A program made the translations under genes and the position numbers. The notes below the pieces were generated by a model. That model was not told the origin of the DNA. It worked only from the letters and a program-made list of their open reading frames with translations, and searched no databases. DNA of 64,000 nt, from assembly GCA_028291515.1 (NCBI GenBank), contig JAQGHU010000022.1, forward strand, positions 62,001 through 126,000, written 5' to 3'. Below are positions 6,337 through 37,851 of the stretch, piece by piece; the stretch's first letter is position 1, and every line of letters begins with the position of its first letter. This stretch comes from Schlesneria sp. (GTDB taxonomy: Bacteria > Planctomycetota > Planctomycetia > Planctomycetales > Planctomycetaceae).

Positions 6337-6351
6337 GCAATCAGTGTGCCG
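6337..6351 (-). promoter_or_regulatory. Sigma-54-like -24/-12 element for the NTF2-to-CsbD operon
   Basis: The minus strand reads CGGCAC-ACTGA-TTGC followed by T. It matches the sigma-54 consensus TGGCAC-N5-TTGC at all positions but the first. The predicted transcription start would leave a leader of roughly 90 bases before ATG 6234. Confidence 0.6.
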
Positions 6352-6559
6352 GATGGGCAGGTGTTGATGTCTGGTCCGGAATCGCTCAAGAGCGCGACGA
6401 AACCCGCTTTGCGAACTTCAAGTGAGCGCTGGAGGAACATGCTGCGCTGAGAGTGACCATAGTCGAGCCAGCCCAAAAAACTATTTGGTTTACGACTTGA
6501 AACGATTTGAAGAAAGCGCCACGGGCTGGGGTGGTGCCGTGGTTTGTGTCTTCCTATTA

Positions 6560-6642
6560 GGGAGGGCGAGGGCTCCTGCCGAGCCGCGCATGTCAATGGT
6601 CCCGCAATAACATGCGCGGCTCGGCAGGAGCCTCGCCCTCCC
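6560..6642. repeat. Long inverted repeat (about 32-bp arms)
   Basis: The arms lie at 6560-6592 and 6611-6642 and are perfectly complementary except for one extra G in the left arm. The 18-base loop includes TCAATGGTCCCGC. The arms contain GGGAGGGCGAGG and CTCCTGCCGAGCC. It is too long and lacks a T-tract for an ordinary terminator, so I read it as a dispersed palindromic (REP/MITE-like) repeat. Other copies were not seen in this window. Confidence 0.75.
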
Positions 6643-6709
6643 AGTGATAGGCCATCCAGCGGCTGAGCGAACCAGGCCAATGGCTTTCGATTGAACACAC
6701 CGATTGATG

Positions 6710-6724
6710 TGGCACTCGATTTGC
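6710..6724 (+). promoter_or_regulatory. Sigma-54-like -24/-12 element for DUF1328 and AI-2E genes
   Basis: The sequence TGGCAC-TCGAT-TTGC is an exact match to the sigma-54 consensus core and spacing. It lies 119 bases before the DUF1328 ATG and diverges from the minus-strand element at 6337-6351. Confidence 0.65.
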
Positions 6725-6842
6725 GTTCATCCCTTTAACTTCAAATCCCACATGGCTATTGCCAGCGTCGTCCGTCGACACGGCGTGATGGGATTCCGAG
6801 TCACGAGTTTAATTTCAAACAATCAAGTTTTGGAGACACATC

Positions 6843-7010
6843 ATGTTGAGTTGGGCACTGACCTTTTTGATTATCGCGCTGATTGCTGGAGCATTAGGAT
6901 TTGGTGGCGTTGCTGGAGAAGCCGCCTGGGTCGCTCACGTTCTGTTTGTGATCTTCATCGTGCTGTTCCTGGTCTCGTTGATCGCAGGCCGTCGCGTGCC
7001 CCCGGTCTAA
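6843..7010 (+). CDS. DUF1328 family small membrane protein
   Basis: This short 55-residue gene encodes [20 protein letters not shown] and a second helix ([19 protein letters not shown]) ending in a basic tail RRVPPV. The two helices, the GFGGVAG turn and the length match DUF1328 (YtjA-type) proteins, which are small inner-membrane proteins found near stress genes; the molecular role is unknown. TTGGAG about ten bases before the ATG gives a ribosome binding site. It is followed after 50 bases by the AI-2E family transporter gene and preceded by the best sigma-54-like element in the window (6710-6724), so the two genes probably share a stress-induced transcript. Confidence 0.9.
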
Positions 7011-7060
7011 CGACATATCAGGACGCATGACGCAACTGGCGATTTCAGGAGGTGGATCTC

Positions 7061-9168: not shown

Positions 9169-10791
9169 TTACAGGGGTGTTGGGAACAACTGCAGCAGTG
9201 AGCTCAATCGCTGCAGCTCAATCGGTTTGACGCAATGGTGATTGAACCCGGCGTCGATGCTTCGATTGATATCCTCTTCTTGTCCGTATCCGGTCATCGC
9301 CACAAGTAGCGTGTTTCGATAGTCTGGCAACGCTCGCAGGCATCGCGCTAGTTGGTGACCATTCATCCCGGGCAAACCGATATCTAGAAAGACGGCTTGG
9401 AACTGCGTCGTCTTTGCGAGCTCGAGTGCTTCGAGGCTGCTATTCGCGATGGTGACTTCGTGTCCCAGCAGGTTGATCAGCATCCCAATCGTGGTGGCAG
9501 CGTCTTTGTTGTCGTCAACAACCATGATCTGCCGACTCGGTCCTTTGTCACTTGAGTTTGAGTTAGCCGCCGTCTCGTGGCTCGTTGTCTCCGGGGGGAA
9601 CGCGGGCAATCGGACAGTGAATTCGCTGCCGCAGCCCAGACCGTCGCTGGCGGCCTTCACCGTGCCACCGTGCAGTTCGACGAGGCGACGCACCAGCGTC
9701 AGACCAATGCCTAGCCCTCCTTCCGAACGAGCCAGCGAGCGGTCGCCCTGGATGAAGAGATCGAAGATCTGCGGTAAAAGCTCGGCAGAAATCCCCATGC
9801 CTGAATCGAGAACCCGGATCACGACCTCATCGCCATCGATTGCCGTTGAGAGGAAGATTGAGCCACCTTCATCGGTGTACTTGGCGGCATTCGTTAACAG
9901 GTTCGAAATGACTTGAGCCAGGCGAGTTCCGTCCGCTTCCAGGAACAAGGTCGTCGGTGGCATTTGCACGGTCAATTGATGCTTGCGGGCATTCAACAGC
10001 GGCGTGCTGATTTCGGCGGCTCGCGCGATGATCGTCGCTAAATCAACACGCTCCTTCTGAAGCTTGATCTTCCCGAGCGAGATGCGAGAGACATCGAGCA
10101 GGTCGTCGACGAGTCGAGACAAATGTCGCGTTTGCCGATCGATAATGTCACTGACATAGGCGACCTTGTCATCCCCTTTCATCAGGTGATTCAAGATCGC
10201 GATGGCATTAGAAATGGGGGCCAACGGATTTCGCAGTTCGTGAGCGAGCATCGCCAGGAACTCATCTTTGCGGCGATTGGAATCCTGCAGATCCTGGTGT
10301 TCTTTCTGCTTGGTGATATCGGTGACGATCAGGCAGATTGCGGGGTGATTCCCCAGCAGCATGGGTGTCAGCGCGATGTGGATGGTTTGCACGGCACCCT
10401 CTGCGGATTCGAGCAGGAATTCGCCCTGCCCATTTTGCGTCTGGCTTCGTCCCAGGAGCGATTCAAACAGGTGCTGCTGATTGAATGGCAGCAAACTTGT
10501 GACGCGTGTGCCGGCGATGTCCCATTGAGTGCGATCAAAGAAGGCCGCGAATGCGCGATTGCAATAGGAGACCGTGCCATCACTCGTGAGGGTTGCGGCC
10601 CCTTGCTGAGCGGCCTCGATTAGGTTGCGATACGCATGATCAGCGCTTGATAACGTGAATACTCTCTCGCCAGCCGGGCTCTCGACGACGACTGCGTCGA
10701 TTTCACCAGATCGAATGGCACGCAGCGTCTCTTCCGCTTCTTCGAGCCGTTGCAGTCGTTCAATCACATCATCGGCAAGTGCTATCGTCAT
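9169..10791 (-). CDS. PAS hybrid sensor histidine kinase with receiver domain
   Basis: The 540-residue protein has no transmembrane helix. Domains in order are a short N-terminal helix (ERLQRLEEAEETLRAIRSGE), a PAS domain at about 65-165 (AYRNLIEAAQQGAATLTSDG), HisKA with the phospho-acceptor His in LAHELRNPLAPI near 183, HATPase_c at about 285-400 (NLLTNAAKYTDEGG, DSGMGISAELLPQIF, GGLGIGLTLV), and a receiver domain at about 425-535 with the acceptor Asp in VFLDIGLPGMNG. ATG 10791 is preferred over a TTG upstream. It starts 65 bases after the KaiB-like gene, so the two are probably co-transcribed. The receiver could pass phosphate to an HPt protein such as that at 30464-30829, but no partner is adjacent. 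Confidence 0.92.
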   Translation of the reverse strand: MTIALADDVIERLQRLEEAEETLRAIRSGEIDAVVVESPAGERVFTLSSADHAYRNLIEAAQQGAATLTSDGTVSYCNRAFAAFFDRTQWDIAGTRVTSLLPFNQQHLFESLLGRSQTQNGQGEFLLESAEGAVQTIHIALTPMLLGNHPAICLIVTDITKQKEHQDLQDSNRRKDEFLAMLAHELRNPLAPISNAIAILNHLMKGDDKVAYVSDIIDRQTRHLSRLVDDLLDVSRISLGKIKLQKERVDLATIIARAAEISTPLLNARKHQLTVQMPPTTLFLEADGTRLAQVISNLLTNAAKYTDEGGSIFLSTAIDGDEVVIRVLDSGMGISAELLPQIFDLFIQGDRSLARSEGGLGIGLTLVRRLVELHGGTVKAASDGLGCGSEFTVRLPAFPPETTSHETAANSNSSDKGPSRQIMVVDDNKDAATTIGMLINLLGHEVTIANSSLEALELAKTTQFQAVFLDIGLPGMNGHQLARCLRALPDYRNTLLVAMTGYGQEEDINRSIDAGFNHHCVKPIELQRLSSLLQLFPTPL

Positions 10792-10856
10792 GATTTGGCC
10801 CCATGTGTGGTTAGTCAGATCGAATCGAGGAGTGGCGTCGCGCAAAAAGGCGGCAT

Positions 10857-11216
10857 CTAACTGCCGGAGTGACCTTCGCGCTGATCCTCTTTTCTGTCGG
10901 TGATCTGACTCATCGGTTGCAGTTGCAACCGTAACAAGACGTGCTCGGTGTTGGATAGGTCACCGACGATTTTTAGCGATGGCGAAGGGGATTTTCGAAC
11001 CAAGGTCGGTATCGCCACGATCCGATCTTCGCGCGCCATCAATGGGTTCGTGAGCAGATCGACAACTTCAATCTTGTACTTGCCCGTCAGATGATCTTCG
11101 CAGATCCGTTGTAGATTCTTGAAAGCCGCGACCGACTTCGCCGTTTGACCAGCCACGTACAGCCGCAATTCCCAGATGTCACTCTTCGGATCCGTGTCCT
11201 CCGAATTGGCAGTCAT
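10857..11216 (-). CDS. KaiB-domain protein (no KaiC nearby)
   Basis: The 119-residue protein contains a KaiB thioredoxin-like domain at about 17-100: [39 protein letters not shown] and [20 protein letters not shown]. The LYVAG start, the conserved VVDL strand and the PTL-x-K motif are family marks. In cyanobacteria KaiB binds KaiC in the circadian clock; in other bacteria KaiB-like proteins occur with or without KaiC and are linked to stress. No KaiA or KaiC gene lies in this window. The gene directly precedes a PAS hybrid kinase, reminiscent of KaiB-like domains in sensor kinases such as SasA. A charged C-terminal tail replaces the usual end. Confidence 0.88.
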
Positions 11217-11503
11217 GGTTTATCTCCTGTAAACGATGAAAGAATGCATCCGTCAAAGCTTGCAAGGGCAGGCAGCACTGACGGATGTCGGTGTTATCCA
11301 TGCCATCGAGTGAACGCGCGTTTTCCGCGTGCAACGCGAGGCGCAGGTACGTTGTCGTGCCGGCAGTCAGCCGTTTCCACGAAACGCTGGTGCCACAAAA
11401 AGATGGCGGGCGATCAGAAAAAAACTGAGACCTCGTCGCTCGTAAACTGGCACAGAAAAAGCCAGTTCAGACAACTTCGCGGATGTTTGAAAAACATCCA
11501 AGC

Positions 11504-11551
11504 CTAGGTGCGGAGCGCCTGGAATTCAGCGCTGAGCAATCGTGTTTCCAT
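11504..11551 (-). CDS. Possible 15-residue leader peptide before the KaiB-like gene
   Basis: A GGGAGGA site seven bases or fewer before an ATG opens the frame METRLLSAEFQALRT followed by TAG. It lies about 100 bases after the sigma-54-like element at 11653-11667. It is followed by two hairpins (arms 11481-11488/11492-11499 and 11445-11451/11461-11467) and then the KaiB-like gene. This order is leader-peptide-like, but the frame is very short and may be chance. Confidence 0.22.
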   Translation of the reverse strand: METRLLSAEFQALRT

Positions 11552-11652
11552 TGATCCTCCCTCATTCCGCTGCGGTGGCGAGCGGGACGATCTGGTTGTT
11601 GCAGTCGACCAACAGGTCGCAGTCTCTTAAAGATCGTCGTGAACACTGTCAC

Positions 11653-11667
11653 GCAACAGCCATGCCA
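11653..11667 (-). promoter_or_regulatory. Sigma-54-like element, possibly for the KaiB-kinase transcript
   Basis: The minus strand reads TGGCAT-GGCTG-TTGC, a strict match to the core. It is about 440 bases upstream of the KaiB-like ATG, further than the other examples, so the link needs a long leader or an intervening small gene. Confidence 0.45.
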
Positions 11668-12194
11668 TTTCAGGAATGTCGTCAGGTGTCGACGTAACGT
11701 ATTATCTGCAAGAGCGCTATGGCTGCGGCGGCCTCGTCGAGAAGGCGGGAAGCCTCCCCGGATCATCTCCGCCTCCATGCAATCGAGGGCGTGTTGCTGA
11801 TTGATTTATGGCAATTGCAGGCCTGAATCGGATCTTGCGCGTGGGCAAAGTTCACCGATCGTCTGATGAATGCTCATTCTGGAACAATAGCAATCAGTCA
11901 AACACCTTCATCGACGCTGCCGGCACAACTCACATCAATTGATTCCTCAGCGAACTTTCTTATCGCTGAGTGGGAGGCACCGGTTGTGAAGTCGTCTGTC
12001 TATTGTCGTAACGATACGTGCTGACTGGTGGAGTTGCGTTGTCGTATGTCGTGAAGACCCAATCTCTTGGCGTGATTGGCTACCCCAATACAAGCTCTGG
12101 CAAGGCGCGCGTTGCAGTTTCTCTTTCGGGGTGCGGAACGTGGGTAACTCGACAATTACGCAATGCCGTCGAGGTAACACGCTTTCTCATCTCA

Positions 12195-12209
12195 CGGCAT
12201 CTCACTTGC
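12195..12209 (+). promoter_or_regulatory. Sigma-54-like element for the PA2169-like gene at 12287
   Basis: The plus strand reads CGGCAT-CTCAC-TTGC. The spacing is exact, and the predicted start of transcription is about 65 bases before ATG 12287. Confidence 0.55.
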
Positions 12210-12286
12210 GTAGAAGTGCTTTCGTGAAATCGGCCGACTCTGTCCACAAAAAACTCATTGCGAATACGTGAGCAGGATGCAACCAG

Positions 12287-13117
12287 ATGATCGCGACATA
12301 CCACAGCCAAGCCTTCCACAATCAAATGCAATCAACGCCATGGAGCGTGGATCAACTCTATGATTTTGAACTTCCTGAATCTAGCGAAACCGCTTCAGAT
12401 GCGGGCTTGGTAGAGCCCCGGATGGATCCAGAAGACCGTGACCGCATCTTGAATCACTTGCGCCACTTGACGGTATCGAGCTTGAGTAGCTTCGAAGAAA
12501 TTGCATCCGCAACAACTGATTTGCACCTGAGTTCATTTGCCGATGTAGTCGTCCGACAGCGGACCGCTCAGCAACACGCGTTGTATGAAGTCCTGGGCTA
12601 TTCCTCTGCCAACGATGAAGATGAGTTCACGGAAAGCCTGTCGGCGCTGCGGTCGCTATGGCGTGGGGCGATTTGGAATTTGGAACAAGGTCATCGGGGG
12701 CTGTTCCTTGAGTATGCGGAACGAGCGGAGTCGTTGCTGGAAGAGGCCTATCTATCCGCGGCACAGGCCTTAGGTGATGATCCGCTGGCCAGCGAAATTC
12801 GCGACTATGCGATCATGGTGTGCGGTTCACGCGCGCTGATCGAAGAACTTGCCGACAGCGTGACGCGGCACGTTCCCAGTCAATTTCGAGATAGCCGATT
12901 GCAATTGCGAGTGTCATCGCAACATCCCAGCGGGTTGGAAAATGAGACCGCTCGCAGGAAATCCAATATTGTGTTCACGCGAAAGAGTGACGAGGGACTT
13001 GTCGCGACGGTTCGCCGTGACAGCAAGGCTGTCGCTCGGGTTCGCGAAGAGAAAAAGCAAAAGTGGGAACGGACACAGCCAACTCGGCCAAAATGTCCAC
13101 GAAGACAAGAGACATGA
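12287..13117 (+). CDS. PA2169/DUF2383-like four-helix-bundle protein with basic tail
   Basis: The 276-residue protein has a helical core at about 50-200 that follows the PA2169 (DUF2383) layout: LNHLRHLTVSSLSSFEEIA, SFADVVVRQRTAQQHALYEV, LRSLWRGAIWNLEQG and ERAESLLEEAYLSAAQ. PA2169 proteins are ferritin-like bundles of unknown function seen in stress clusters. The last 70 residues are Arg/Lys-rich and probably disordered, which is unusual for the family and could bind nucleic acid or membranes. It is a distant relative of the gene at 37048-37515. The start at 12287 is weakly supported; an internal Met before DPEDRDRIL is possible. It may be co-transcribed with the lipoprotein gene 124 bases downstream. 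Confidence 0.7.
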   Translation: MIATYHSQAFHNQMQSTPWSVDQLYDFELPESSETASDAGLVEPRMDPEDRDRILNHLRHLTVSSLSSFEEIASATTDLHLSSFADVVVRQRTAQQHALYEVLGYSSANDEDEFTESLSALRSLWRGAIWNLEQGHRGLFLEYAERAESLLEEAYLSAAQALGDDPLASEIRDYAIMVCGSRALIEELADSVTRHVPSQFRDSRLQLRVSSQHPSGLENETARRKSNIVFTRKSDEGLVATVRRDSKAVARVREEKKQKWERTQPTRPKCPRRQET

Positions 13118-13241
13118 CTCGGGCGGGCAGCAAGACCGGTGGGCGATAAGCGAGGTCCAACGTAGGGCCGGCTTTAGGAATCGAATCTGTTTCGATGACC
13201 CGCAATATGGGTCAATTGTACTATCAGGAAAGGTGAGTCCA

Positions 13242-13712
13242 ATGAAGACATTACTAAGTGGTTTGGCCGCGGCGGCACTGGCAATGACAATCGGATGCAC
13301 TCAGTCCACGCCCGGTGGACCAGGTGTCACGGCGGCTCCAAATAGCAGTGGCGGCACGACCACTGTCGCGAACAAGCCAATCATCGGAGAAGCCGATGAT
13401 ACATTCAAAATGAACACTCCAGTGCTGGCGACTCGCGTAACGCAAGGCGAATCGGCGACTGCGAAAATCAGTGTCAGTCGCGGTAAGAATTTTGACGAAG
13501 ACGTGGCTCTGAAGTTTATGGACGTTCCGAAGGGTGTCACCTTGACCCCCGTGACGCCTATGATTGCGAAGAGCGACAAGGAAGCCACGATTGACGTTCA
13601 GGCTGCTTCAGACGCTGCGATTGGTGAATTCACCGTCAAGGTGTCGGGCCATCCAGAAAAGGGTGCCGACGCTACCAGCGAATTGAAGCTGACCATTCTT
13701 GAGAAGAAGTAG
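13242..13712 (+). CDS. Predicted lipoprotein, paralogue of 35768-36241
   Basis: The 156-residue protein has a lipoprotein signal (LLSGLAAAALAMTIGC), a Pro/Gly/Thr linker, and a beta-rich domain (VTQGESATAKISVSRGKNF, DVALKFMDVPKGVTLTP, EFTVKVSGHPEKGADATSEL). The folded part resembles the bacterial Ig-like repeats that follow PPC-type domains in planctomycete proteins. It should be attached to a membrane. ATG 13242 is chosen over a longer in-frame extension because it opens the signal sequence and AGGAAAGG lies before it. A clear paralogue lies at 35768-36241; both lie in small stress clusters. A terminator follows at 13735-13765. Confidence 0.82.
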   Translation: MKTLLSGLAAAALAMTIGCTQSTPGGPGVTAAPNSSGGTTTVANKPIIGEADDTFKMNTPVLATRVTQGESATAKISVSRGKNFDEDVALKFMDVPKGVTLTPVTPMIAKSDKEATIDVQAASDAAIGEFTVKVSGHPEKGADATSELKLTILEKK

Positions 13713-13734
13713 TCCTCGACGGGCTTGGATGATC

Positions 13735-13765
13735 CGCGCAAGTTGCTGCTTGCGCGTGGGGTTTT
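13735..13765 (+). terminator. Rho-independent terminator after the lipoprotein gene
   Basis: The hairpin CGCGCAAG-TTGCTG-CTTGCGCG has a perfect 8-bp stem and is followed by TGGGGTTTTAAT. It lies 22 bases after the stop at 13712. Confidence 0.75.
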
Positions 13766-13795
13766 AATCTCCGTTCTTTTTGAAGGATTGTAGAC

Positions 13796-14074
13796 ATGAA
13801 ACGCACGTTCCTGACATTCTCGCTGCTGGTTGCTGCAACTGCTCTGTTGATGGGTAGCTCAGACGCGGAAGCTCGCGGTCGCTGCCGTTATCGCAGTGGG
13901 CAACGCTACCAAAGTGCTTACTATCAGCCTGCCAACACCTATGCAGTCAATGGCACGGCTACGCCTTATGCTACCGTGGATCCAAATGCTGCGCCAGCGA
14001 ATCCGGCACCGGTTCCTCCTGAGGAAACTGCTGCACCACAACAAGCTCCAGCAGCCCCTGCTCCTGGAACGTGA
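13796..14074 (+). CDS. Small secreted Ala/Pro-rich protein
   Basis: The 92-residue product begins with a signal peptide (FLTFSLLVAATALLMGSSDAEA), then a basic stretch RGRCRYRSGQRYQ, a Tyr/Asn/Thr segment, and a C-terminal Pro/Ala-rich tail. There is no recognisable domain. The composition fits a short envelope or matrix-exposed protein. GAAGGA precedes the ATG. It lies between a terminator at 13735-13765 and a long hairpin at 14108-14184, so it is probably transcribed on its own. Confidence 0.6.
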   Translation: MKRTFLTFSLLVAATALLMGSSDAEARGRCRYRSGQRYQSAYYQPANTYAVNGTATPYATVDPNAAPANPAPVPPEETAAPQQAPAAPAPGT

Positions 14075-14107
14075 TCGATATATGTGTGGGCTGAAAATGT
14101 CCCCTCT

Positions 14108-14184
14108 GGCTGCGCGAATGAGTGGTGTCAACGGAAGCGAAAGCGAGCCGTTGTCCCCACTGATCGCGCAGCCATCTGTTTTTT
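14108..14184 (+). terminator. Long multi-stem hairpin with T6 tract
   Basis: Three nested stems are visible: a 10-bp outer stem (14108-14117 with 14164-14173), a 4-bp GTGG/CCAC stem (14122-14125 with 14157-14160), and a 6-bp CAACGG/CCGTTG stem (14129-14134 with 14148-14153). At the tip a GCGAAAGC could form a GAAA tetraloop. A T6 run follows at 14179-14184. It is a strong terminator for 13796-14074, or a small structured RNA ending there. Confidence 0.65.
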
Positions 14185-14225
14185 ATTACTAATGCTTATT
14201 CGTAGTTTCGAAAGGAGAACGCAAA

Positions 14226-14501
14226 ATGGTCACACACGCACAGGCAAAGCAGCAGATTGAACGAGGATTTCTGATTCACCTCGGCGTTTATGTCCCCGTC
14301 GCTGCGGGACTGATTGCGCTCAATTTAACCCGTAATCCTGACAAACTCTGGTCATTGTGGGTCGCCGCAGGTTGGGGACTTGGGATCGCGCTGCATGGGA
14401 CTCTCGCCTACCTGGCAACGCCAGAACGAGCGATTCAGCGGACTATGCATCGGATGGAAGAGCGCCAGCAGCACCGACACAAGGTGCAACAGGCGGGGTA
14501 A
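14226..14501 (+). CDS. 2TM-domain membrane protein
   Basis: The 91-residue protein fits the 2TM domain family: a short amphipathic start (AKQQIERGFLIHLGVYV), two transmembrane helices at about 17-37 and 45-65 joined by a short polar loop (NLTRNPDKLWS), and a charged C-terminal helix rich in Gln, His and Arg. Such domains occur alone or attached to sensory modules; the role is unknown. AAAGGAG precedes the ATG at good spacing. It is followed after 41 bases by the DUF2892-like gene, so both are probably on one transcript. Confidence 0.82.
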   Translation: MVTHAQAKQQIERGFLIHLGVYVPVAAGLIALNLTRNPDKLWSLWVAAGWGLGIALHGTLAYLATPERAIQRTMHRMEERQQHRHKVQQAG

Positions 14502-14542
14502 CTATCGCAGTATCTCGGCCAATGAGGTCTAGGAGCATTCCG

Positions 14543-15027: not shown

Positions 15028-15033
15028 GAATCA

Positions 15034-15479: not shown

Positions 15480-15494
15480 GCAAATGCCATGCCC
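15480..15494 (-). promoter_or_regulatory. Sigma-54-like element for the gene at 15034-15420
   Basis: The minus strand reads GGGCAT-GGCAT-TTGC, with the GG and GC dinucleotides at the required spacing. The predicted start of transcription is about 48 bases before ATG 15420. Confidence 0.5.
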
Positions 15495-28312: not shown

Positions 28313-30430
28313 ATGTCTGAATTTCGTTCAGCACCGGAAACGGATCCAAAGCCCGAAACGGCAAATATTCTGGTGGTGGACGATTTGTCCGAGAAGTTAC
28401 TGGCCTATGAAACCGTCTTGTCGAAGCTGGGCGAGAACCTGATCCTGGTGAATTCAGGGGCTAACGCCTTGAAGCAGGTTCTGCAAAAGCAGTTCGCCGT
28501 GATTCTGCTTGATGTCAATATGCCGGGTATGGATGGGTTTGAGACTGCCAAACTGATTCGTGGCCATCGCCGATCGGCGATGACTCCCATTATTTTCCTG
28601 ACGGCATTCACCGATGAAGTGCGGACTGCCGAGGGCTATGCCAGCGGTGCGGTTGACTATCTGCCGACGCCGGTCGTTCCCGAGATCCTTCGTGCCAAGG
28701 TGCGTGTCTTCGTCGAACTGTTCAAGATGCGGCAACAGGTGGCTCAGCGCGCGGAAGAACGAGCGCTTCATGTTGCCTCTGAAGCGGCGAACCGACGACT
28801 CACATTCCTATCGGATGCAGGGGCGATCCTTGGTCGTTCTTTAAGTTTCCACGCAACTGCTCGAGATCTTGTTCAGTTACCGGTTCCTTTCCTGGCCAAA
28901 TCCAGCTTGTTGGCGGTCGCACCGTCAGCGGCAGCAGCCGAGCGGAACTTCGCAGTCAGTTCGGATGTAAATGGACAGTCCCAGTTCAGTGAACTCTCTA
29001 ATCTCGATGTCCTTCCCGTTGCGGTTCAGCAGGTGGTTCGCAAGGCATTTGAATCGGGTACTCGCGCTGAGGAACGTATTCCTGGCGATGGCGACGAAGG
29101 AGTTGAATACTATGTCTCTATTCCACTATTGGCACGCAATCGCACCTTCGCAGTCCTGACTCTGGGACGTGATACCCCGTTTGATGCAGATGCCTCGATG
29201 GTGGCTGCGCTGGCCTCTCGCGGCGCGATCGCCCTAGATAACGCTTTGCTGCATGAGGAACTCTTGCGGGCGGACCGCCAGAAGATCGATTTTCTGTCGA
29301 TGCTGGCTCATGAATTGCGCAACCCGTTGGCTCCCATCTGCAATGCGGCCCAACTGCTGAAGTTGAATACGAGCGACGACGACGCCGACATGAAATGGAC
29401 TACCGAGGTCATCGATCGGCAAGTCAATCAGATGGTTCGACTGATTGACGATCTGTTGGATGTGTCCCGGATCACCAGTGGCAAGATTCGATTGAAGCGC
29501 CAGGTGATGGACATTACGCGCGTCGTGAACCACGCGATCGAAGCGAGTCAACCGCTGATCGACAGTCGCAATCATGAGTTGGCGATTCTGATTCCTCCGA
29601 ATCCGATCTGGATCGAAGGCGACCAGACCAGGGTGACACAAGTTGTCACGAACCTATTGAACAATGCGGCCAAGTACACGGACAACGGCGGTCGGATTCA
29701 ACTGGCGGTGCGCAACGAAGGCGCAAACGTTCAGATTGCTGTTCGCGATAATGGAATCGGGATCCCCCGCGACATGCTGCGGTCGGTGTTTGAACTCTTC
29801 ACGCAGGTCGAACGAACGTTGGACCGATCGTCGGGAGGTTTGGGAATCGGACTCACACTCGTCCAGAGATTGGTCGAGATGCACGGCGGTAGTGTGGTGG
29901 CTGAAAGCGACGGTTCAGGGCGCGGTGCCTGTTTCACCGTCATGCTTCCAACTTGTGCCAACCCCGAGGTCGTCATCGAGCCCTCAGCCGGCTTTGTACG
30001 GGAGTCGGAGGATCACCAGCGGCCCAAGATCCTAATCGTCGATGACAATTCCGATGCGGCCGATACGCTCGCAACCTTGGTGCGATTAAACGGCCATCCC
30101 GTTCAAGTGGCATACGACGGGTTGTCCGCAGTGATCGTTGCGAAGGCATTTAAGCCCGCAATCGTTATGCTTGATATCGGACTGCCTGGTCTGGACGGCT
30201 ATGCCGTGGCAGAGCGACTGCGCGGGGACGATGCCACCCGCAACGCTCTGCTCATCGCGATCAGTGGGTATGGGCAACCGATGGACGAATCGCGGTCGCG
30301 ACAGGCGGGATTCGATATGCATTTCGTGAAACCCGTCGAATTCAGTGCGCTCCAGTCCGTGCTGCAGTCGGATCGCTGGAGCGTAGCGGCACTTCAACAG
30401 GTATCTGATCGAAGCGACATCGGTTCTTAG
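28313..30430 (+). CDS. Hybrid kinase REC-GAF-HisKA-HATPase-REC
   Basis: The 705-residue soluble protein starts with a receiver domain (about 16-140, acceptor Asp in LLDVNMPGMDG near 66). A short helix and a GAF-like domain follow (about 165-315), then HisKA with LAHELRNPLAPIC near 331, HATPase_c (NLLNNAAKYTDNGG, DNGIGIPRDML, GGLGIGLTLVQRL), and a second receiver (about 570-690, LDIGLPGLDG near 620). The N-terminal receiver suggests its kinase activity is set by another kinase, so it acts as an intermediate node. ATG 28313 is preferred over a TTG 27 bases upstream. It lies 114 bases after the giant kinase on the same strand. Confidence 0.93.
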   Translation: MSEFRSAPETDPKPETANILVVDDLSEKLLAYETVLSKLGENLILVNSGANALKQVLQKQFAVILLDVNMPGMDGFETAKLIRGHRRSAMTPIIFLTAFTDEVRTAEGYASGAVDYLPTPVVPEILRAKVRVFVELFKMRQQVAQRAEERALHVASEAANRRLTFLSDAGAILGRSLSFHATARDLVQLPVPFLAKSSLLAVAPSAAAAERNFAVSSDVNGQSQFSELSNLDVLPVAVQQVVRKAFESGTRAEERIPGDGDEGVEYYVSIPLLARNRTFAVLTLGRDTPFDADASMVAALASRGAIALDNALLHEELLRADRQKIDFLSMLAHELRNPLAPICNAAQLLKLNTSDDDADMKWTTEVIDRQVNQMVRLIDDLLDVSRITSGKIRLKRQVMDITRVVNHAIEASQPLIDSRNHELAILIPPNPIWIEGDQTRVTQVVTNLLNNAAKYTDNGGRIQLAVRNEGANVQIAVRDNGIGIPRDMLRSVFELFTQVERTLDRSSGGLGIGLTLVQRLVEMHGGSVVAESDGSGRGACFTVMLPTCANPEVVIEPSAGFVRESEDHQRPKILIVDDNSDAADTLATLVRLNGHPVQVAYDGLSAVIVAKAFKPAIVMLDIGLPGLDGYAVAERLRGDDATRNALLIAISGYGQPMDESRSRQAGFDMHFVKPVEFSALQSVLQSDRWSVAALQQVSDRSDIGS

Positions 30431-30463: not shown

Positions 30464-30829
30464 TCAGGAGGTCGGAGTAGCCGACTTTGTCGAGGCTTCC
30501 AGCACAGCAACAAGCCGCTCGAACTCGCGTTGCAGCGGCGGCAGCAAGCTACTTATCGTACTGCGATCGCCTGCTTTCGCGTGTGCTTCGATGTCGGCTG
30601 CGATTTGGACGAATGGAATCGCCTCGAAAGTGGCTGCCAATCCCTTCAGTCCATGAGCCGTTTGGACCACCTCTTCAATTGAGCCACTTTCGTTGGCGGC
30701 GCGAAGTTGCCCCATCAGTCCTGGGGCATCCTCCAGGAAATACGCGGTCAAAGCAGTCAATAAGCTTTGATCATTACCTAATCGCTGCAATGCGACGGCA
30801 GGATTTGTAACGGGAACTGCTGGGTTCAT
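30464..30829 (-). CDS. HPt phosphotransfer protein
   Basis: The 121-residue protein is an HPt domain: a four-helix bundle with the phospho-acceptor His59 in VVQTAHGLKGLAATF, the classical H-G-L-K-G motif. Flanking helices are LLTALTAYFLEDAPGLM and IPFVQIAADIEAHAKAGD. It would relay phosphate from the receiver domain of a hybrid kinase to a response regulator. It lies 48 bases after the sigma-54 activator gene on the same strand, the natural acceptor, and convergent to the hybrid kinase at 28313-30430. This is the only HPt protein in the window. Confidence 0.93.
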   Translation of the reverse strand: MNPAVPVTNPAVALQRLGNDQSLLTALTAYFLEDAPGLMGQLRAANESGSIEEVVQTAHGLKGLAATFEAIPFVQIAADIEAHAKAGDRSTISSLLPPLQREFERLVAVLEASTKSATPTS

Positions 30830-30877: not shown

Positions 30878-32386
30878 TCAGTTTTCGGCCCCATTATCCA
30901 TCCGCACTTTGTGTTCCATCGAGATGTTAAACGTGGCGATGCGGTCACGAATTTTCGCGCGAGTGACACCGAGAATTTCAGCGGTACGGCTTTGGTTGCC
31001 GTTCGTCTCCTGCAGCACACGCGTGATCAAATATCTCTCAACTCGATCGACGACCGCGGCGTACAGATCCGTCGTCTTCGAACGCAATTCGCTATCGATA
31101 AATGCACTCAAGTCATCCAGTGAACTGTTTTGAGTAGTTGGCAGCGAATGCGTGTCGATTGTGTCCGAAGGCTCTTCTTTCATCACTGGTGCTGGTGCAG
31201 CGGTAACAGGATGAGCGTCCGTGATTTGACGCGGCAGAAACTCGGGAATAATGATCGGACCGATCGCGTTCAACACTGCTTGCTGAACGACGCTGTACAT
31301 TTCGCGAATATTCCCGGGCCAGGAATAGTTGGTCAGCAGTTCGAGGCTTTGCGGCGACAACCCTTCAATGTGAAGCTTGCTGAGTGCTTGTTGTGATCGC
31401 ATCAGGAAGTGCTTAAGCAGCGGTTGAATGTCCTCGCGTCGATCGCGCAGTGGAGGAATAAAAATGGTGACCCCGTTCAGGCGATAGAGCAAGTCTGCGC
31501 GAAATGTCTTCGACTCCACCATCTCTTCGAGAGGGCGATTGGTGGCCGCGATGACGCGGACATCGGTGCCAATCGTTTCGTTTCCGCCGACGCGTTCAAA
31601 GCGTTGGTCTTGCAACAACCGCAGCACTTTGCCTTGGACGACGGGGGCCATGTCGCCCACTTCGTCGAGGAAGATGGTTCCCCCGTGGCATTGCTCGAAC
31701 TTGCCGATCCGGCGACGATCCGCACCGGTGAAGGCCCCTTTTTCGTGTCCGAACAGTTCACTTTCGAGAAGCGTGTCGGGTAGAGCCGCGCAGTTGATCG
31801 CCATAAACGGTCGATCGCGACGATGGCTATGCTGATAGATCGCCTGCGCCGCCAGTTCTTTTCCGGTACCGCTTTCGCCACGAATCAGGACCGGAACGTC
31901 TTGAGCGGCCACGCGACCGATCGACTTCAGAACGTCCAGAATCTGCGGGCTGCGGCCGACGAACACTTTGCCGGCCTGGTCAGAGACTGGATCCGCTGCC
32001 AACGCCACTGGCGTGCTCATCAGCCGGCGTGCATCGACAGCAGCTTGTACGAGTCGATTCAGCGACGGCAGGTCCAGCGGCTTGGAAACATAGTCGTATG
32101 CTCCCAACTGCATCGCTTCAATCGCGGTGCTGGTGCCACTGTCCGCTGTGATGAAAATCACGGGCAAGCGTCGATCGATCGCTTGGATGTCGCGTAAAAC
32201 ATCCAAGCCCGATCGCCCTGGCATCATGATATCCAGCAGCACGACATCAGGCTGCGTCCGCGTGACGAGTTGCAACCCTTCGTCGGCAGTTGCTGCGGTC
32301 TCGACGCGAAGATGAATTTTCTCGAGCGATTGGCTTACCATATGCCGAATGCTGCGGTCATCATCGACGACTACGACCAATGCCAT
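30878..32386 (-). CDS. Sigma-54-dependent NtrC-type response regulator
   Basis: The 502-residue protein has an N-terminal receiver (about 1-115) with acidic pocket DDD8-10, acceptor Asp52 in LLDIMMPGRSG and Lys102 in VSKPLD. A sigma-54 AAA+ domain follows (about 140-375) with Walker A GESGTGKE at 170-177 and the sigma-54 contact loop GAFTGA at 217-222. The Fis-type DNA-binding region at the end contains ETNGNQSRTAEILGVTRAKI. It is therefore a complete activator of sigma-54 promoters. ATG 32386 is chosen since the receiver starts there; the open frame upstream is not family-like. It heads a two-gene transcript with the HPt gene, and diverges from the CHASE3 kinase at 32732. Confidence 0.95.
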   Translation of the reverse strand: MALVVVVDDDRSIRHMVSQSLEKIHLRVETAATADEGLQLVTRTQPDVVLLDIMMPGRSGLDVLRDIQAIDRRLPVIFITADSGTSTAIEAMQLGAYDYVSKPLDLPSLNRLVQAAVDARRLMSTPVALAADPVSDQAGKVFVGRSPQILDVLKSIGRVAAQDVPVLIRGESGTGKELAAQAIYQHSHRRDRPFMAINCAALPDTLLESELFGHEKGAFTGADRRRIGKFEQCHGGTIFLDEVGDMAPVVQGKVLRLLQDQRFERVGGNETIGTDVRVIAATNRPLEEMVESKTFRADLLYRLNGVTIFIPPLRDRREDIQPLLKHFLMRSQQALSKLHIEGLSPQSLELLTNYSWPGNIREMYSVVQQAVLNAIGPIIIPEFLPRQITDAHPVTAAPAPVMKEEPSDTIDTHSLPTTQNSSLDDLSAFIDSELRSKTTDLYAAVVDRVERYLITRVLQETNGNQSRTAEILGVTRAKIRDRIATFNISMEHKVRMDNGAEN

Positions 32387-32731: not shown

Positions 32732-35653
32732 ATGTACGTGCTGGCTCGGAGTTTTAATCCGCGGTCCACTGCCATCTTCGGTTTGATTTTGTCCGTCTTG
32801 ATTGTGAACTGTGTCGTGGTCTATCGAAGCACGACTTCACAGCATCAGATTCAAGTCAGCATCGCCCGGTCGCAGGAAGCATTGCTTCAAGTGGAGACCG
32901 TGTTTTCAGAATTGAAGGACGCAGAATCGAATGCGCGGGCCTTTGTCATCACGGGGGACCAGGCATTTCTAACCGCTTATCAACGCGCGTCGGCAAACGT
33001 CCCAGCGCTGACGGAGAAACTCAACGACTCGACGGATCGCTCCACTCATTCGCAACGCTTCAAGGAGTTTAGTCGTCGCGCTCTGACACGAGTGGCCTTG
33101 CTGCAATCAATCGTTGAGGCTCGTCAAGATGAGGGCATGGAAGCGGGACGCAGGTTAATCGCATCCGGGAGCGGTCGCGAAGAAATGGAACGAGTTCGTG
33201 CGGTTCTGAACGAAATTCGTGTGGAAGAAAACAAGCGGTTTGTGGAACGCACTGAAGCGGCGGAGAAAAAACGAGTGGCGGCTCTCACTGCCAACGTGAC
33301 TGCCGTCAGCATGGCGGTCATGGTGACGGCCGCCGCTTGGTTTTTCATCGAGCGCGAACTCGAGAAACGTCGGTATGCCGAAGTAGCAGCGAAAGAAGAA
33401 CGTCAGAACTTGCTGATGACACTAACAAGCATCGGCGATGCGGTGATTGTCACGGACGCTGCTGCGCGCGTGACATTAGTCAATTCCGTTGCCAAACAGT
33501 TGCTCGGACAGTCAGGCGAACTTATTGGCCGATCGCTTGCAGACGTATTCCCCGTGGTCCACAGGGCGACCAAAGTTGCCGCCACGGCCTCTTTGGCGAA
33601 GGCGCTACAGACCGGTGAAGTCGTCGCTTCTGTCGATGACTTGATTCTGCTGCGGCCAGACGCGACAGAGATCCCCATTGAACATAGCGCCGCACCCATT
33701 CGAGATGAATCTGGAGCGACCACTGGAATTGTTCTGGTCTTTCGCGATTGTACTCAGCGGCGTGAACTTCAACGGGCAGCGAAGGAGCGCGAGCATCGCT
33801 TCCGTCGCATGTTCGAAACGCCCTTGATCGGAATCGCCGTCGGCAACGGAGCGGGGTTTCTCGAAGAAGCCAATGATGCCTATCTCGATCTGATCGGCTA
33901 TCAACGCGGCGAGTTGGGCGAATCTTCCCTATCGTGGGGAGGTGTGCCTGCCGGGCAAAGCCCTCTTAACGAGAGTGCTCAAGTCGAACTGTCCGAGACA
34001 GGTATCTGCAAGCCATTTGAGAGAACCTATCGGAACTCGACCGGGCAAGAGGTACCCGTCTTGGTTTCCGCCGCTCGACTATCAGATCAGCAAGATCGGA
34101 TCGTCGTCTATGTGATGGATCTGACTCAAAGCCGACGGACCGAAGCGGCTTATCGAGAAAGCGAATCGCGTTTTCGTGTCCTTTCCGAATGCATGCCACA
34201 AAAAGTGTGGACGGCTCGTCCAGATGGTCAGCTCGACTATTTGAATCAGACTCTGATCGCCTACGCCGGGCGTCCCAAGGAAGAACTGACAGGATGGGGG
34301 TGGCTCGACGTGATCCATCCAGACGATGTCGAACCGCATCTGAAGGGGTGGCGTCAGTCCGTCGCCTCGGGGGAGATGTTCGAGATCGAGGTTCGATTGC
34401 GAAAAGAGTCTGGCGAATATCGCTGGCATCTCACGAGAGCCCTGCCCATCTATGCCTCCGATACGCAGGTTGTGACCTGGTTGGGAACGAATACCGATAT
34501 TCACGATCAAAAGCTGGCTGAAGAATCGTTGCGGGAAGAACATCGTCGCAAAGATCAGTTCCTGGCAGTGCTGGCCCACGAACTTCGCAATCCGCTGGCA
34601 CCGCTCAGTAACGCCGTACAAGTTTTCAGTAGCATGCGTCTCGATCCATCGAAAGCGTCGGATCTCCTGGCGATCATGCAGCGGCAGATCCGACAAATGA
34701 CCCGCTTGATCGACGACCTGCTGGACCTGGCACGAATCACTCAAGGGCGAATCCTGCTGCGGCGTGATTGGACGTCGGCCAAATCGATTGTCTCGGTGGC
34801 GATTGAGGCTGTGCAACCCATGGTCAACGAGCGTCAGCACCAACTCACTGTGAAGCAACCCGATGAGGACATCTGGCTGAATGCCGACGCCGCGCGGCTC
34901 GCGCAATCGCTGACGAACTTGTTGCATAACGCCGCCAAGTACACCAGTCCGCAGGGAAGGATCGACTTAATCGTTGAGAAGGAGAATAGCTGCGTCTTAT
35001 TCCGAGTTCGCGACAATGGTGCCGGCATTCCTGCGAACATGGTGAACAGAGTCTTTGACCTGTTCATGCAAGTCGAGCAGACGTTGGACCGGTCGCACGG
35101 AGGCTTGGGGATCGGCCTGACTCTTGTTCGCACGTTAATCGAACTTCACGGCGGCAGCGTCTTTGCACAAAGCAGTGGCACTGGTCAGGGATCGGAATTC
35201 ACGATCAAGCTCCCGCTTTCCGCTGAACCGTCGACACCAGCGACGAAAACTCCGGCCAAGCCCGTCGAATCCGCACCACTTCCAGAACTGAATGTCCTAG
35301 TCGTGGATGACATCCAGGCATCTGCTAAGACTCTCGTGCTCATGCTGAAGGCCGTCGGACAGAAAGCGGACGCCATTTTTGATGGGCGAAGTGCGATCAC
35401 GAAAATCAGCGACGGCAACTTTGACATCGTCTTTCTTGATATTGCGATGCCGGGAATGGACGGGTTAGAGGTCGCGCGCGAGTTGCGTCAGAATCCGCGG
35501 CTGCAATCATTAACGCTGGTTGCGTTGACGGGATTTGGCCAGGAAGAAGATCGTCAACGCAGTATTCAGGCCGGGTTCACAGAGCACCTTGTGAAGCCGA
35601 CCAGCCTGGAATTGTTGACGGCAGTGATCTCGCGAGTGGCGGCAAGAAAATGA
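32732..35653 (+). CDS. Membrane CHASE3-PAS hybrid histidine kinase
   Basis: The 973-residue protein has two transmembrane helices (FGLILSVLIVNCVVVY near 13-30; AVSMAVMVTAAAWFFI near 195-212) enclosing a CHASE3-like sensor domain (SELKDAESNARAFVITGD). Three PAS domains follow: one starting MTLTSIGDAVIVTDAAARV, a divergent second, and a third with WLDVIHPDDVEPHL and a PAC motif. Then come HisKA with VLAHELRNPLAPL near 617, HATPase_c (NLLHNAAKYTSPQG, GGLGIGLTLVRTL) and a receiver near 850-970 (LDIAMPGMDG near 902). It senses an unknown signal outside or in the membrane. ATG 32732 is chosen because GGGAGG lies 4-9 bases before it; the longer frame starts upstream of any family feature. Confidence 0.93.
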   Translation: MYVLARSFNPRSTAIFGLILSVLIVNCVVVYRSTTSQHQIQVSIARSQEALLQVETVFSELKDAESNARAFVITGDQAFLTAYQRASANVPALTEKLNDSTDRSTHSQRFKEFSRRALTRVALLQSIVEARQDEGMEAGRRLIASGSGREEMERVRAVLNEIRVEENKRFVERTEAAEKKRVAALTANVTAVSMAVMVTAAAWFFIERELEKRRYAEVAAKEERQNLLMTLTSIGDAVIVTDAAARVTLVNSVAKQLLGQSGELIGRSLADVFPVVHRATKVAATASLAKALQTGEVVASVDDLILLRPDATEIPIEHSAAPIRDESGATTGIVLVFRDCTQRRELQRAAKEREHRFRRMFETPLIGIAVGNGAGFLEEANDAYLDLIGYQRGELGESSLSWGGVPAGQSPLNESAQVELSETGICKPFERTYRNSTGQEVPVLVSAARLSDQQDRIVVYVMDLTQSRRTEAAYRESESRFRVLSECMPQKVWTARPDGQLDYLNQTLIAYAGRPKEELTGWGWLDVIHPDDVEPHLKGWRQSVASGEMFEIEVRLRKESGEYRWHLTRALPIYASDTQVVTWLGTNTDIHDQKLAEESLREEHRRKDQFLAVLAHELRNPLAPLSNAVQVFSSMRLDPSKASDLLAIMQRQIRQMTRLIDDLLDLARITQGRILLRRDWTSAKSIVSVAIEAVQPMVNERQHQLTVKQPDEDIWLNADAARLAQSLTNLLHNAAKYTSPQGRIDLIVEKENSCVLFRVRDNGAGIPANMVNRVFDLFMQVEQTLDRSHGGLGIGLTLVRTLIELHGGSVFAQSSGTGQGSEFTIKLPLSAEPSTPATKTPAKPVESAPLPELNVLVVDDIQASAKTLVLMLKAVGQKADAIFDGRSAITKISDGNFDIVFLDIAMPGMDGLEVARELRQNPRLQSLTLVALTGFGQEEDRQRSIQAGFTEHLVKPTSLELLTAVISRVAARK

Positions 35654-36272: not shown

Positions 36273-36518
36273 TTAGTCGCGGCGTCCGACCCCAATGACG
36301 GGAGTGCGCGCGGGTGGATCGCTGGCGGGAAATGATTCCTCGCTGGCTTCATCAATGAGCTCTTCGGCTGCTAGTTCGTGGCGATGGTTACAACCAGTAT
36401 AGGGCCGTGGTGAATCCACCATGCAGAACTCCGCACCGCGCGAAATCTGTCTGGCAAAGACGATTATCGCGCCCGAAGCGACCGAGATCCCGGCGAGCCA
36501 AAGCATGGTTGTCAGCAT
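36273..36518 (-). CDS. Small membrane protein with ASEESFPASDPP motif
   Basis: The 81-residue protein has one N-terminal hydrophobic helix (TMLWLAGISVASGAIIVFA), a polar middle, and the motif LIDEASEESFPASDPPARTP near the end. That motif is widespread at the termini of small bacterial stress-type proteins, and I recognise it from unnamed families; its role is unknown. GGAG lies eight bases before the ATG. It heads a two-gene unit with the lipoprotein gene. Compared with the motif's usual context, the membrane anchor is an addition. Confidence 0.65.
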   Translation of the reverse strand: MLTTMLWLAGISVASGAIIVFARQISRGAEFCMVDSPRPYTGCNHRHELAAEELIDEASEESFPASDPPARTPVIGVGRRD

Positions 36519-36561: not shown

Positions 36562-36576
36562 GCATCTCTTGTGCCG
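36562..36576 (-). promoter_or_regulatory. Sigma-54-like element for the 36518-35768 unit
   Basis: The minus strand reads CGGCAC-AAGAG-ATGC. The -24 half is strong and the -12 half keeps GC, with one T to A change. The leader would be about 30 bases. Confidence 0.45.
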
Positions 36577-36697
36577 GGGACCGATTGAGATACTGTTTGG
36601 CCTAATGGGGCCCATCTGCTCCTCTTGAGGGCCGCGTATCGGTCAGTTGCATCGCACCTTGGTCAAATGATTTCCTATGCCCGCGCAGTCGCCGAGT

Positions 36698-36712
36698 TGG
36701 CACACGAGATGC
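36698..36712 (+). promoter_or_regulatory. Sigma-54-like element for the small basic protein gene
   Basis: The plus strand reads TGGCAC-ACGAG-ATGC: a perfect -24 half, and a -12 half with GC in place. It is 73 bases before GTG 36786 and about 120 bases from the divergent element at 36562-36576. Confidence 0.5.
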
Positions 36713-36785
36713 GAACTGTCATTTGCGTACTAGGTGACGTATTCCGACTCTCTAAAATGCAACACTTCTGCAGAATGGAGGAATC

Positions 36786-36935
36786 GTGATTCGCAAACTG
36801 CCAAATGGCCAATACCGGTTGTATTCGCGCAAGGTGGACGAGAAGACTGGACGCCGCCGGAACCTGGGGACGTTCGGCACTCGAGCAGCGGCGGAAAAGC
36901 ACGAGCGGGAGGTCCAATACTTCAAGAGGCACTAG
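36786..36935 (+). CDS. Small basic protein ending YFKRH
   Basis: This 49-residue frame starts at GTG 36786 with GGAGG four bases upstream: the first half is VIRKLPNGQYRLYSRKVDEK and the last residues are HEREVQYFKRH. The composition is highly basic with a repeating beta-turn pattern. Similar short proteins of unknown function exist in Proteobacteria and Planctomycetes and begin with the same R-K-L-P-x-G-x-YRLYS pattern. It may bind nucleic acid (the G-T-F-x-T-R-A-A-A-E-K-H pattern recalls the arm-binding domain of integrases), but this is an inference. Its own sigma-54-like element lies at 36698-36712, and a terminator follows at 36994-37025. Confidence 0.75.
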   Translation: MIRKLPNGQYRLYSRKVDEKTGRRRNLGTFGTRAAAEKHEREVQYFKRH

Positions 36936-36993
36936 CTTCGCTTGTTGGACGGATGATGTCGCTGGTAGCGACAATCGCCAAACTCCAAATCAA

Positions 36994-37025
36994 AAGGCCG
37001 GCGTCAACTTGTTGACGCCGGCCTT
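36994..37025. terminator. Bidirectional terminator
   Basis: AAGGCCGGCGTCAAC pairs perfectly with GTTGACGCCGGCCTT across two bases. On the minus strand it is followed by TTGATTTGG after TT, and on plus by CCTATTG. It ends the small basic gene from one side and the PA2169-like gene (stop at 37048) from the other. Confidence 0.8.
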
Positions 37026-37047
37026 CCTATTGAAGACTAATCCTGTT

Positions 37048-37515
37048 TTATCCTGCACAGGAATCACGCAAATCACGAATGCGATCATGCGAAAACTTAA
37101 CTGCGGCATATTGACGCAGCAACACGTCGCTGACAGTGGTGCTGGCGAAACTTTCTAGAGCCTTTTCATAAGCGGCTTTGATCGAATCTTCGCCTCTTTC
37201 CGCTTCGCAAAGAACCGCGAATCGATCATCCGTGGAAAGCGACTCGCGGATTGTCATCCAAGCCCGATGGACGGCAGCGGCAATCGATCCATCACGTCGT
37301 GGATACTCGCCACTCCACGCGACGAATCTTGCCAATTCGTCGGCTTGAGCATCGCGATCGATCGCGATCTGCTCAAAAGCGCTCTGCAGCGTGAGGTCGT
37401 CGGTCACTTCCGAGGCATGACGAAAGCCGTCGCGGCTATCAATGTTGATCTGAATCAGTTCCTGCAACTGACTGATCATCTTCGGAGTTAATACTTGTTG
37501 TGTCTCGATAGACAT
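37048..37515 (-). CDS. PA2169 family four-helix-bundle (DUF2383) protein
   Basis: The 155-residue protein matches PA2169 (DUF2383): LQELIQINIDSRDGFRHAS, FEQIAIDRDAQADELARFV, SIAAAVHRAWMTIRESL and CEAERGEDSIKAAYEKAL, ending SHDRIRDLRDSCAG. The fold is ferritin-like and soluble; family members are induced with stress genes in several bacteria but have no assigned reaction. Acidic and His residues that could bind metal are partly present. GGAG precedes the ATG. The sigma-54-like element at 37590-37604 is one of the best in the window, and the terminator at 36994-37025 closes the unit. Confidence 0.88.
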   Translation of the reverse strand: MSIETQQVLTPKMISQLQELIQINIDSRDGFRHASEVTDDLTLQSAFEQIAIDRDAQADELARFVAWSGEYPRRDGSIAAAVHRAWMTIRESLSTDDRFAVLCEAERGEDSIKAAYEKALESFASTTVSDVLLRQYAAVKFSHDRIRDLRDSCAG

Positions 37516-37851
37516 TTTGAGTACTCCTGTTGAGTATGACTGGTAGGGGCACGTTCTCGCGTGTCCCCATATTCGTTATTCTTTGGTATGCAAGTGCAAT
37601 GCCACCGCCTCTGTTTGGTGAGTTCTCGTTTGGGCGCGAGATGCAATTGCCCAGATTGAGCATTCGCAATCCACTGCCTGAAATATCGATGCTGGGTTGT
37701 GACCACTTAATTCGATAGACCGACCGCGAGTCGCGGCACAATAGAGGCCACTTTGGTCCCTGATGTTCCACGCACCATCGCAATCGGGATATCGAGCGCG
37801 CGCCACATTTGGCTACGACTGCGAGGGTCGCGTGTCGCCAGCGGTGCGTTG
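37516..37851. other. 336-base gap upstream of the PA2169 gene
   Basis: The gap holds the sigma-54-like element at 37590-37604. The rest to the stop of the PPC gene (37852) shows no gene or repeat. Confidence 0.5.
37590..37604 (-). promoter_or_regulatory. Sigma-54-like element for the PA2169 gene
   Basis: The minus strand reads TGGCAT-TGCAC-TTGC followed by AT, matching the core and spacing. The leader would be about 63 bases. Confidence 0.62.

Follow-up and report, generated by a model that had tools for sequence, protein, structure and literature searches.

Recurring sigma-54 sites and a neighboring activator suggest a stress response built on sigma-54 in Schlesneria and related bacteria

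General stress regulons governed by SigB or RpoS consist of many small, scattered genes under one switch, and a locus of Schlesneria sp. raises the question of whether sigma-54 could fill this role. The locus occupies a 64,000-nucleotide (nt) stretch of an 8.59-Mb draft genome (C109:62001-126000), hereafter the window, where small stress-type genes are preceded by sites resembling sigma-54 promoters and share the DNA with the gene for an NtrC-type activator. Analysis of the window and of related genomes indicates that it is likely to hold a sigma-54-dependent stress regulon plus its control module.

Sigma-54 promoters have the form GG-N10-GC, with the consensus TGGCACG-N4-TTGCW. The genome has one match to the DNA-binding domain of the sigma-54 factor (PF04552, E 1.8e-62). 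A sequence-only reading of the window had picked out ten promoter-like elements and called seven of them strict. All seven were confirmed as matches to the strict pattern GGCAY-N5-TTGC, and the sites at 16215, 36562 and 36699 each depart from it by one base. The ten sites are as follows:

6337-6350, minus strand: strict sigma-54 site, 102 nt upstream of the DUF4440/SnoaL-like gene 5125-6234
6711-6724, plus strand: strict site, 118 nt upstream of the DUF1328 gene 6843-7010, whose homologs in relatives are likewise preceded by sites
11653-11666, minus strand: strict site, 436 nt upstream of the KaiB-like gene 10857-11216; target uncertain
12196-12209, plus strand: strict site, 77 nt upstream of the ATG of open reading frame (ORF) 12287-13117 (no Pfam family)
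15480-15493, minus strand: strict site, 59 nt upstream of gene 15034-15420 (no Pfam family)
16215-16228, minus strand: weaker sigma-54-like site with GGTA at -24, 51 nt upstream of the weak BON-domain ORF 15918-16163
17460-17473, minus strand: strict site, 118 nt upstream of the DUF4142 gene 16529-17341
36562-36575, minus strand: weaker sigma-54-like site with ATGC at -12, 43 nt upstream of ORF 36273-36518
36699-36712, plus strand: weaker sigma-54-like site with ATGC at -12, 73 nt upstream of the 49-aa ORF 36786-36935 and divergent from the site at 36562
37590-37603, minus strand: strict site, 74 nt upstream of the DUF2383 gene 37048-37515, conserved before DUF2383 in relatives

Nine of the sites lie 43-118 nt ahead of a plausible same-strand start codon, read by eye. 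For the site at 12196, the start was taken as the ATG at 12287; the gene caller places it at 12422. An eighth strict match in the window, at 26922 on the minus strand and absent from the earlier list, sits in coding DNA. The region 36562-36712 is a divergent pair of sites about 120 nt apart, with an identical ATGC variant at -12 and two short ORFs without a Pfam family.

The eight window matches to GGCAY-N5-TTGC exceed chance, as 100 dinucleotide shuffles gave a mean of 1.51 and a maximum of 4. Gaps and coding DNA were separated by simple gene calls over 2.06 Mb of the genome, of which about 2.0 Mb lies outside the window; several of the 20-kb pieces overlap by 0.1-4 kb. Within the window, the N5 spacing yields seven gap matches and one coding match, and nine other spacings (N1-N4 and N6-N10) yield 0-1 gap matches. 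Outside the window, 20 gap and 16 coding matches are found at N5, compared with 7-14 gap and 29-47 coding matches at the other nine. Of the ten spacings, N5, the true sigma-54 spacing, is the only one displaced toward gaps, and matches are concentrated in the window. Judging from the other spacings, at least half of the 20 gap sites outside the window are expected by chance. Such sites precede a GroEL-like gene, a PRC-barrel-like gene and others, named by eye from sequence. GroEL-like genes with strict sites, likewise named by eye, occur in this genome (L065 5310-5323, minus strand, 158 nt) and in the relative G070 (L207 3043, plus strand, 180 nt). Genome-wide, the strict pattern has 193 matches, compared with 133 for the reversed pattern.

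Two matrices were applied. One, trained on 46 promoters of relatives only and used at a threshold of 10 with its reversed form as control, finds 14 gap and 16 coding matches in the window, and the reversed matrix finds 0 gap and 10 coding matches. All ten listed sites fall among the 14. The other, a generic sigma-54 matrix not trained on these data, was applied to 300 nt upstream at a threshold of 11, with four spacer shifts as controls. In our genome, 35 of 1006 other genes have a site at this threshold, the shifts giving 17-29. By its own account, the sequence-only reading would fall if matches were about as frequent within coding DNA or ahead of unrelated genes, and the spacing, reversed-matrix and 35-in-1006 controls reveal neither.

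If the sites are promoters of a regulon, they should recur before orthologous genes. Three genes of the window are proposed targets:

6843-7010, plus strand: DUF1328 target gene
16529-17341, minus strand: DUF4142 target gene
37048-37515, minus strand: DUF2383 (PA2169-type) target gene

In 81 genomes of the same family, matches at E <= 0.001 place DUF2383 in 23 genomes (21 above the family cut-off) and DUF1328 in 38 (37 above). For the loci of relatives, a strict site was defined as GGYAY-N5-TTGC within 450 nt upstream. Such sites precede 13 of 22 DUF2383 loci, with none at 11 other spacings, and 11 of 30 DUF1328 loci, with 0-2 at other spacings. These counts include our own loci (L146 and L174); they omit 4 of 26 DUF2383 matches, all below the family cut-off, and cover the 30 of 54 DUF1328 matches that have loci. 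With our own loci excluded, the generic matrix reaches 11 before 17 of 21 DUF2383 and 22 of 29 DUF1328 genes, and the four spacer shifts give 0-1. Neighboring genes in the relatives' loci reach this score in 13 of 105 cases (spacer shifts 1-3), and their raised rate fits further targets within the islands. Across 392 kb around such genes in relatives, the strict N5 pattern occurs 29 times in gaps, with one site entered twice because L199 and L200 overlap, and 8 times in coding DNA; 11 other spacings give 0-5 gap matches. Beyond the family, in a hand-picked set of 20 places in 19 genomes, some of one genus, from five other families of the class (f3, f4, f5, f9 and f11), 13 of 20 DUF2383 upstream regions score at least 11 and spacer shifts give 0 of 20. 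In f3, 4 of 7 places have such sites. The same promoter type precedes orthologous DUF2383 and DUF1328 genes across other genomes.

A sigma-54 promoter needs an activator, and the following candidate control genes are found in the window:

28313-30430, plus strand: hybrid histidine kinase (receiver, GAF, HisKA, HATPase, receiver)
30464-30829, minus strand: HPt phosphotransfer protein adjoining the activator, carrying AHGLKG
30878-32386, minus strand: NtrC-type enhancer-binding protein, proposed cognate activator (Response_reg, Sigma54_activat and HTH_8 matches; GAFTGA in the translation)
32732-35653, plus strand: hybrid histidine kinase, divergent from the activator (CHASE3, PAS, HisKA, HATPase, receiver)

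The activator had been described as complete, with an HPt gene beside it and hybrid kinases flanking it, and every part of this description was recovered. We take AHGLKG to be the phospho-acceptor motif of the HPt protein. Like NtrC and ZraR, the activator joins a receiver, an AAA+ domain with GAFTGA and a Fis-type helix-turn-helix (HTH). It differs from them in having an HTH of its own clade, HPt and hybrid kinase genes as neighbors, and proposed targets that are scattered small genes. In the 300 nt upstream of the activator, of the HPt gene and of each of the two flanking kinases, no sigma-54 site scores 10 or higher (best 0.3-9.2). It is therefore unlikely that sigma-54 amplifies the switch.

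The case for this activator had been made from co-residence only, and it now gains support from conserved gene order, phyletic co-occurrence and a supported ortholog clade. At a threshold of E <= 1e-150, an ortholog is present in 37 of the 81 family genomes, a count that includes one copy truncated at a contig end (G064, E 4.6e-142, 65% identity). In 21 of the 37, our own genome included, no more than 12 kb separates it from DUF1328 or DUF2383. For G036, the second-best activator copy was taken, and the linkage table omits a few second DUF1328 copies, none of which shares a contig with the activator except that in G069. DUF1328 is found in 34 of 37 genomes with the activator versus 4 of 44 without it (Fisher p 5.8e-15), DUF2383 in 22 versus 1, CsbD in 31 versus 11 and DUF4142 in 18 versus 3, all uncorrected for kinship. 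Outside the family, among 22 genomes selected for holding DUF2383, the best homolog of the activator has a DUF2383 match no more than 12 kb away in 13 (f4, f5 and f11; the linked match in one, G177, is below the family cut-off), compared with 1 of 46 for other listed homologs.

The closest homologs of the activator group in one clade with support of 99/96. It has 25 rows but 24 distinct ones, since the window and L208 are one row entered twice. G066 and G021 fall just outside, and G048, G050, G001 and G013 are not in the extraction. The HTH of the clade typically reads GNQSxAAEILGITRGKxRDR. An HPt similar to that of the window is found in 8 of 14 longer activator loci (L188-L190, L192, L195, L199-L201, L205 and L318-L322, with L199 and L200 sharing one activator), and DUF1328 is found in 11 of 29 short loci with 1.5-kb flanks. 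Most kinase matches in the relatives' loci fall below 31% identity and could represent hybrid kinases of any kind. When 80 loci of activator homologs were searched by tblastn with the window proteins, DUF1328 was found in two: L238, from the family genome G072, and L282. In the latter (9598-14562), from a metagenome-assembled genome of Pirellulales, DUF1328 adjoins an activator homolog of about 50% identity, with an HPt gene at a distance of about 3 kb. The module may therefore not be confined to the family.

NtrC-type proteins with a phosphorylated receiver assemble into a hexamer, whose ATP hydrolysis opens the sigma-54 closed complex. The HPt adjoining the activator and the two flanking hybrid kinases make a phosphorelay likely in the present case. 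On a presumed signal, the hybrid kinases would phosphorylate the receiver of the activator, probably through the adjacent HPt. The activator would then bind upstream of the -24/-12 promoters and open sigma-54 polymerase by ATP hydrolysis, and the set switched on would be the scattered small stress-type genes (DUF2383, DUF1328, DUF4142, DUF4440 and others). The activator at 30878-32386 is probably cognate to these promoters. Extended to the class, the proposal is that Planctomycetia run their general stress response through sigma-54, in the role filled elsewhere by SigB or RpoS. A conserved stress island would encode a dedicated phosphorelay (hybrid kinase, HPt and one conserved NtrC-type activator) that turns on DUF2383, DUF1328 and DUF4142, along with others such as PRC-barrel genes, some CsbD genes and GroEL genes. 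On balance, we lean toward this broader account.

Observations that weigh against the regulon and its proposed control concern both the targets and the wiring. The sequence-only reading had coupled CsbD, DUF883, KaiB-like, PA2169, BON and DUF4142 genes to sigma-54; of these, the PA2169-type DUF2383 and the DUF4142 genes have strict sites. The CsbD gene of the window (385-588) and the DUF883-like gene (1711-2136, with a Pfam match only at E 0.11) have no site within 300 nt (best -0.6 and 2.7, respectively). The BON assignment of ORF 15918-16163 is weak (E 0.0088, below cut-off), and the KaiB-like gene is 436 nt from its site, which leaves its status as a target uncertain. CsbD was rejected as a core member, with a strict site within 450 nt in just 6 of 30 loci, in one case at a distance of 431 nt. 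These six loci all belong to genomes that have an activator ortholog (6 of 23), and none of the seven loci in genomes lacking one has a site. The label "stress gene" itself derives from family names and published links.

This last point opens a possible, though doubtful, alternative: The regulon is real and serves attachment, envelope or starvation physiology, and stress is read from family names only. Such a regulon would be compatible with the proposed wiring. Most targets belong to families of unknown function, and a published comparison, in the portion considered here, puts sigma-54 chiefly at the exterior of the bacterial cell (PMC3162934); the string "planctomycet" does not occur in its main text. 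On the side of stress are the sites before GroEL-like genes, named by eye, in our genome and G070, and the enrichment of chaperones, proteases and Usp in Planctomycetia reported in the part of a 2025 survey considered here (PMC12316311).

For the wiring, 16 of the 37 family genomes with the activator lack linkage within 12 kb, and 11 of these have no typed DUF1328 or DUF2383 match on the activator contig. Linkage is also lacking in 9 of 22 genomes elsewhere, and none of the six f3 genomes has the best homolog linked to DUF2383. In one f3 genome (G114, C1:2988674 and 2994863), DUF2383 has another enhancer-binding protein 6 kb away, and an activator swap is possible there. In each of three genomes of genus g62 (G084, G126 and G108), one DUF2383 copy is found about 1.1 kb away from the activator and a second copy is distant; the activator-adjacent copy of G126 lacks a site (3.2) and the distant copy has one (15.0). 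Of the 29 short activator loci, just 3 show an HPt, and 5 of 37 best activator matches (G005, G024, G025, G061 and G067) contain one stop codon. Our genome has 24 enhancer-binding-domain matches, 18 of which cover nearly the whole domain, so rival activators exist. In a 2009 microarray study of R. baltica (PMC2754498), as far as considered here, rpoN was not regulated on heat shock and was down-regulated in salt; such transcript behavior does not test sigma-54 activity. The same portion of that study mentions that a thioredoxin gene in its common stress response has been proposed to have a sigma-54 promoter.

A search of upstream regions for a shared activator site had been proposed as a check and was answered only in part. 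Dyad counting found nothing above shuffles upstream of the promoters. Expectation maximization found a palindrome, g.TGatCGatCA.c (TGATCGATCA-like), that performs better than shuffles and beats control upstream regions, also after removal of overlapping promoters (n = 54). Its four-fold area under the curve (AUC) is 0.63 for width 14, where 2 of 4 folds found another motif, and 0.73 for width 24, where 1 of 4 folds did. The control pool entered every fold, so the p-values are too small. Training on DUF2383 transfers poorly to DUF1328 (AUC 0.52-0.57), and the reverse direction shows partial carry-over (0.56-0.71). The palindrome is thus a weak candidate for a shared activator site.

We consider it unlikely that the sigma-54 promoters are real and are activated by one or more other enhancer-binding proteins, with the window activator a neighbor for some other reason, such as serving its own kinase/HPt module only. 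The 18 near-complete domains, the unlinked genomes, the siteless G126 copy and the lack of a robust shared activator site are all consistent with this arrangement. It is opposed by the specificity of the outside-family linkage for the best homolog, by the phyletic co-occurrence of activator and targets, and by the lack of sigma-54 sites before the activator, HPt and kinase genes, which leaves no obvious sigma-54 target in their own module. The remaining alternative, that chance matches of a short degenerate motif were taken for promoters because small genes follow, draws on the strict pattern in coding DNA (16 of 36 matches in 2.0 Mb outside the window) and the small excess before other genes of this genome, but it is highly improbable and, for the whole set, refuted by the spacing and matrix controls and by conservation before the same families in other genomes; the single weak sites at 16215, 36562, 36699 and 11653 may be chance.

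Further sites in the window are recorded here. A near-consensus sigma-54 site, TGGCACGTGGCATGCA, at 3200-3215 on the minus strand, falls within the TPR gene 2948-5083, toward its 3' end. The site is about 260 nt ahead of a same-strand run from 2936 to 385 (membrane ORF, ferritin-like, DUF883-like, coiled coil and CsbD), and it might drive this run, including the CsbD and DUF883-like genes. Four weaker gap matches score 10.0-11.9 with the matrix: 19306-19319 (minus), upstream of the cytochrome-like gene 17810-19237; 19379-19392 (plus), upstream of the GH15/trehalase-like gene 19441-21243; 21432-21445 (plus), 417 nt upstream of the giant gene 21863-28198; and 11536-11549 (minus), between the 11653 site and the KaiB gene. 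A 15-codon ORF, METRLLSAEFQALRT, at 11504-11551 on the minus strand with a good ribosome-binding site ahead, also lies in this last interval and possibly encodes a leader peptide.

Sigma-54 control has been discussed in this phylum before. Studholme and Dixon, in work of 2004 as cited in PMC2754498 and PMC12316311, reportedly described the sigma-54 enhancer-binding proteins of Pirellula strain 1, a member of the same phylum, and proposed sigma-54 promoters before the thioredoxin gene RB10378 and csrA. We take COG5487, COG3237, COG3652 and COG2823 to be the COGs of DUF1328, CsbD, DUF4142 and OsmY/BON, respectively. None of these four COG numbers occurs in the main text of Carrera-Reyna et al. 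2025 (PMC12316311), who predicted the sigma-54 regulon of Planctomycetia by sigma-54 matrices. In the sections considered here, that survey reports, for Planctomycetia or Planctomycetota, sigma-54 enrichment of chaperones (GroEL, DnaK and IbpA), proteases and Usp, and likewise of MscS, CsrA and regulators of the NtrC/ZraR type. It resembles the present case in its use of sigma-54 matrices and its stress-type genes and differs in working at the level of COG enrichment; these sections tie no activator to the stress set and describe no conserved island. The "new stress logic" claimed by the sequence-only reading was therefore partly anticipated, since sigma-54 promoters before chaperone, protease and Usp genes were already predicted. 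Among the papers listed in our literature search, outside which most subscription papers fall, none has a title or abstract opening that connects sigma-54 or this activator with DUF2383, DUF1328 or DUF4142 in Planctomycetes.

The genome matches the models for RpoS (TIGR02394) and SigB/F/G (TIGR02980) only below their cut-offs; EcfG was not searched for. In contrast to SigB or RpoS regulons, control here would depend on sigma-54 together with an activator that uses ATP. Unless its activator hydrolyzes ATP, a sigma-54 regulon is silent, a logic different from that of partner-switching SigB or RpoS level. The finding is real and conserved, with more support than was available to the sequence-only reading; ordinary sigma-54 and NtrC parts form an apparent stress regulon with a dedicated activator in a conserved island. 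The recurrence of these sites and of the neighboring activator in many related bacteria suggests a stress response built on sigma-54. The result singles out one activator, one HPt and a short list of targets, and it gives DUF families of unknown function a first regulatory context.

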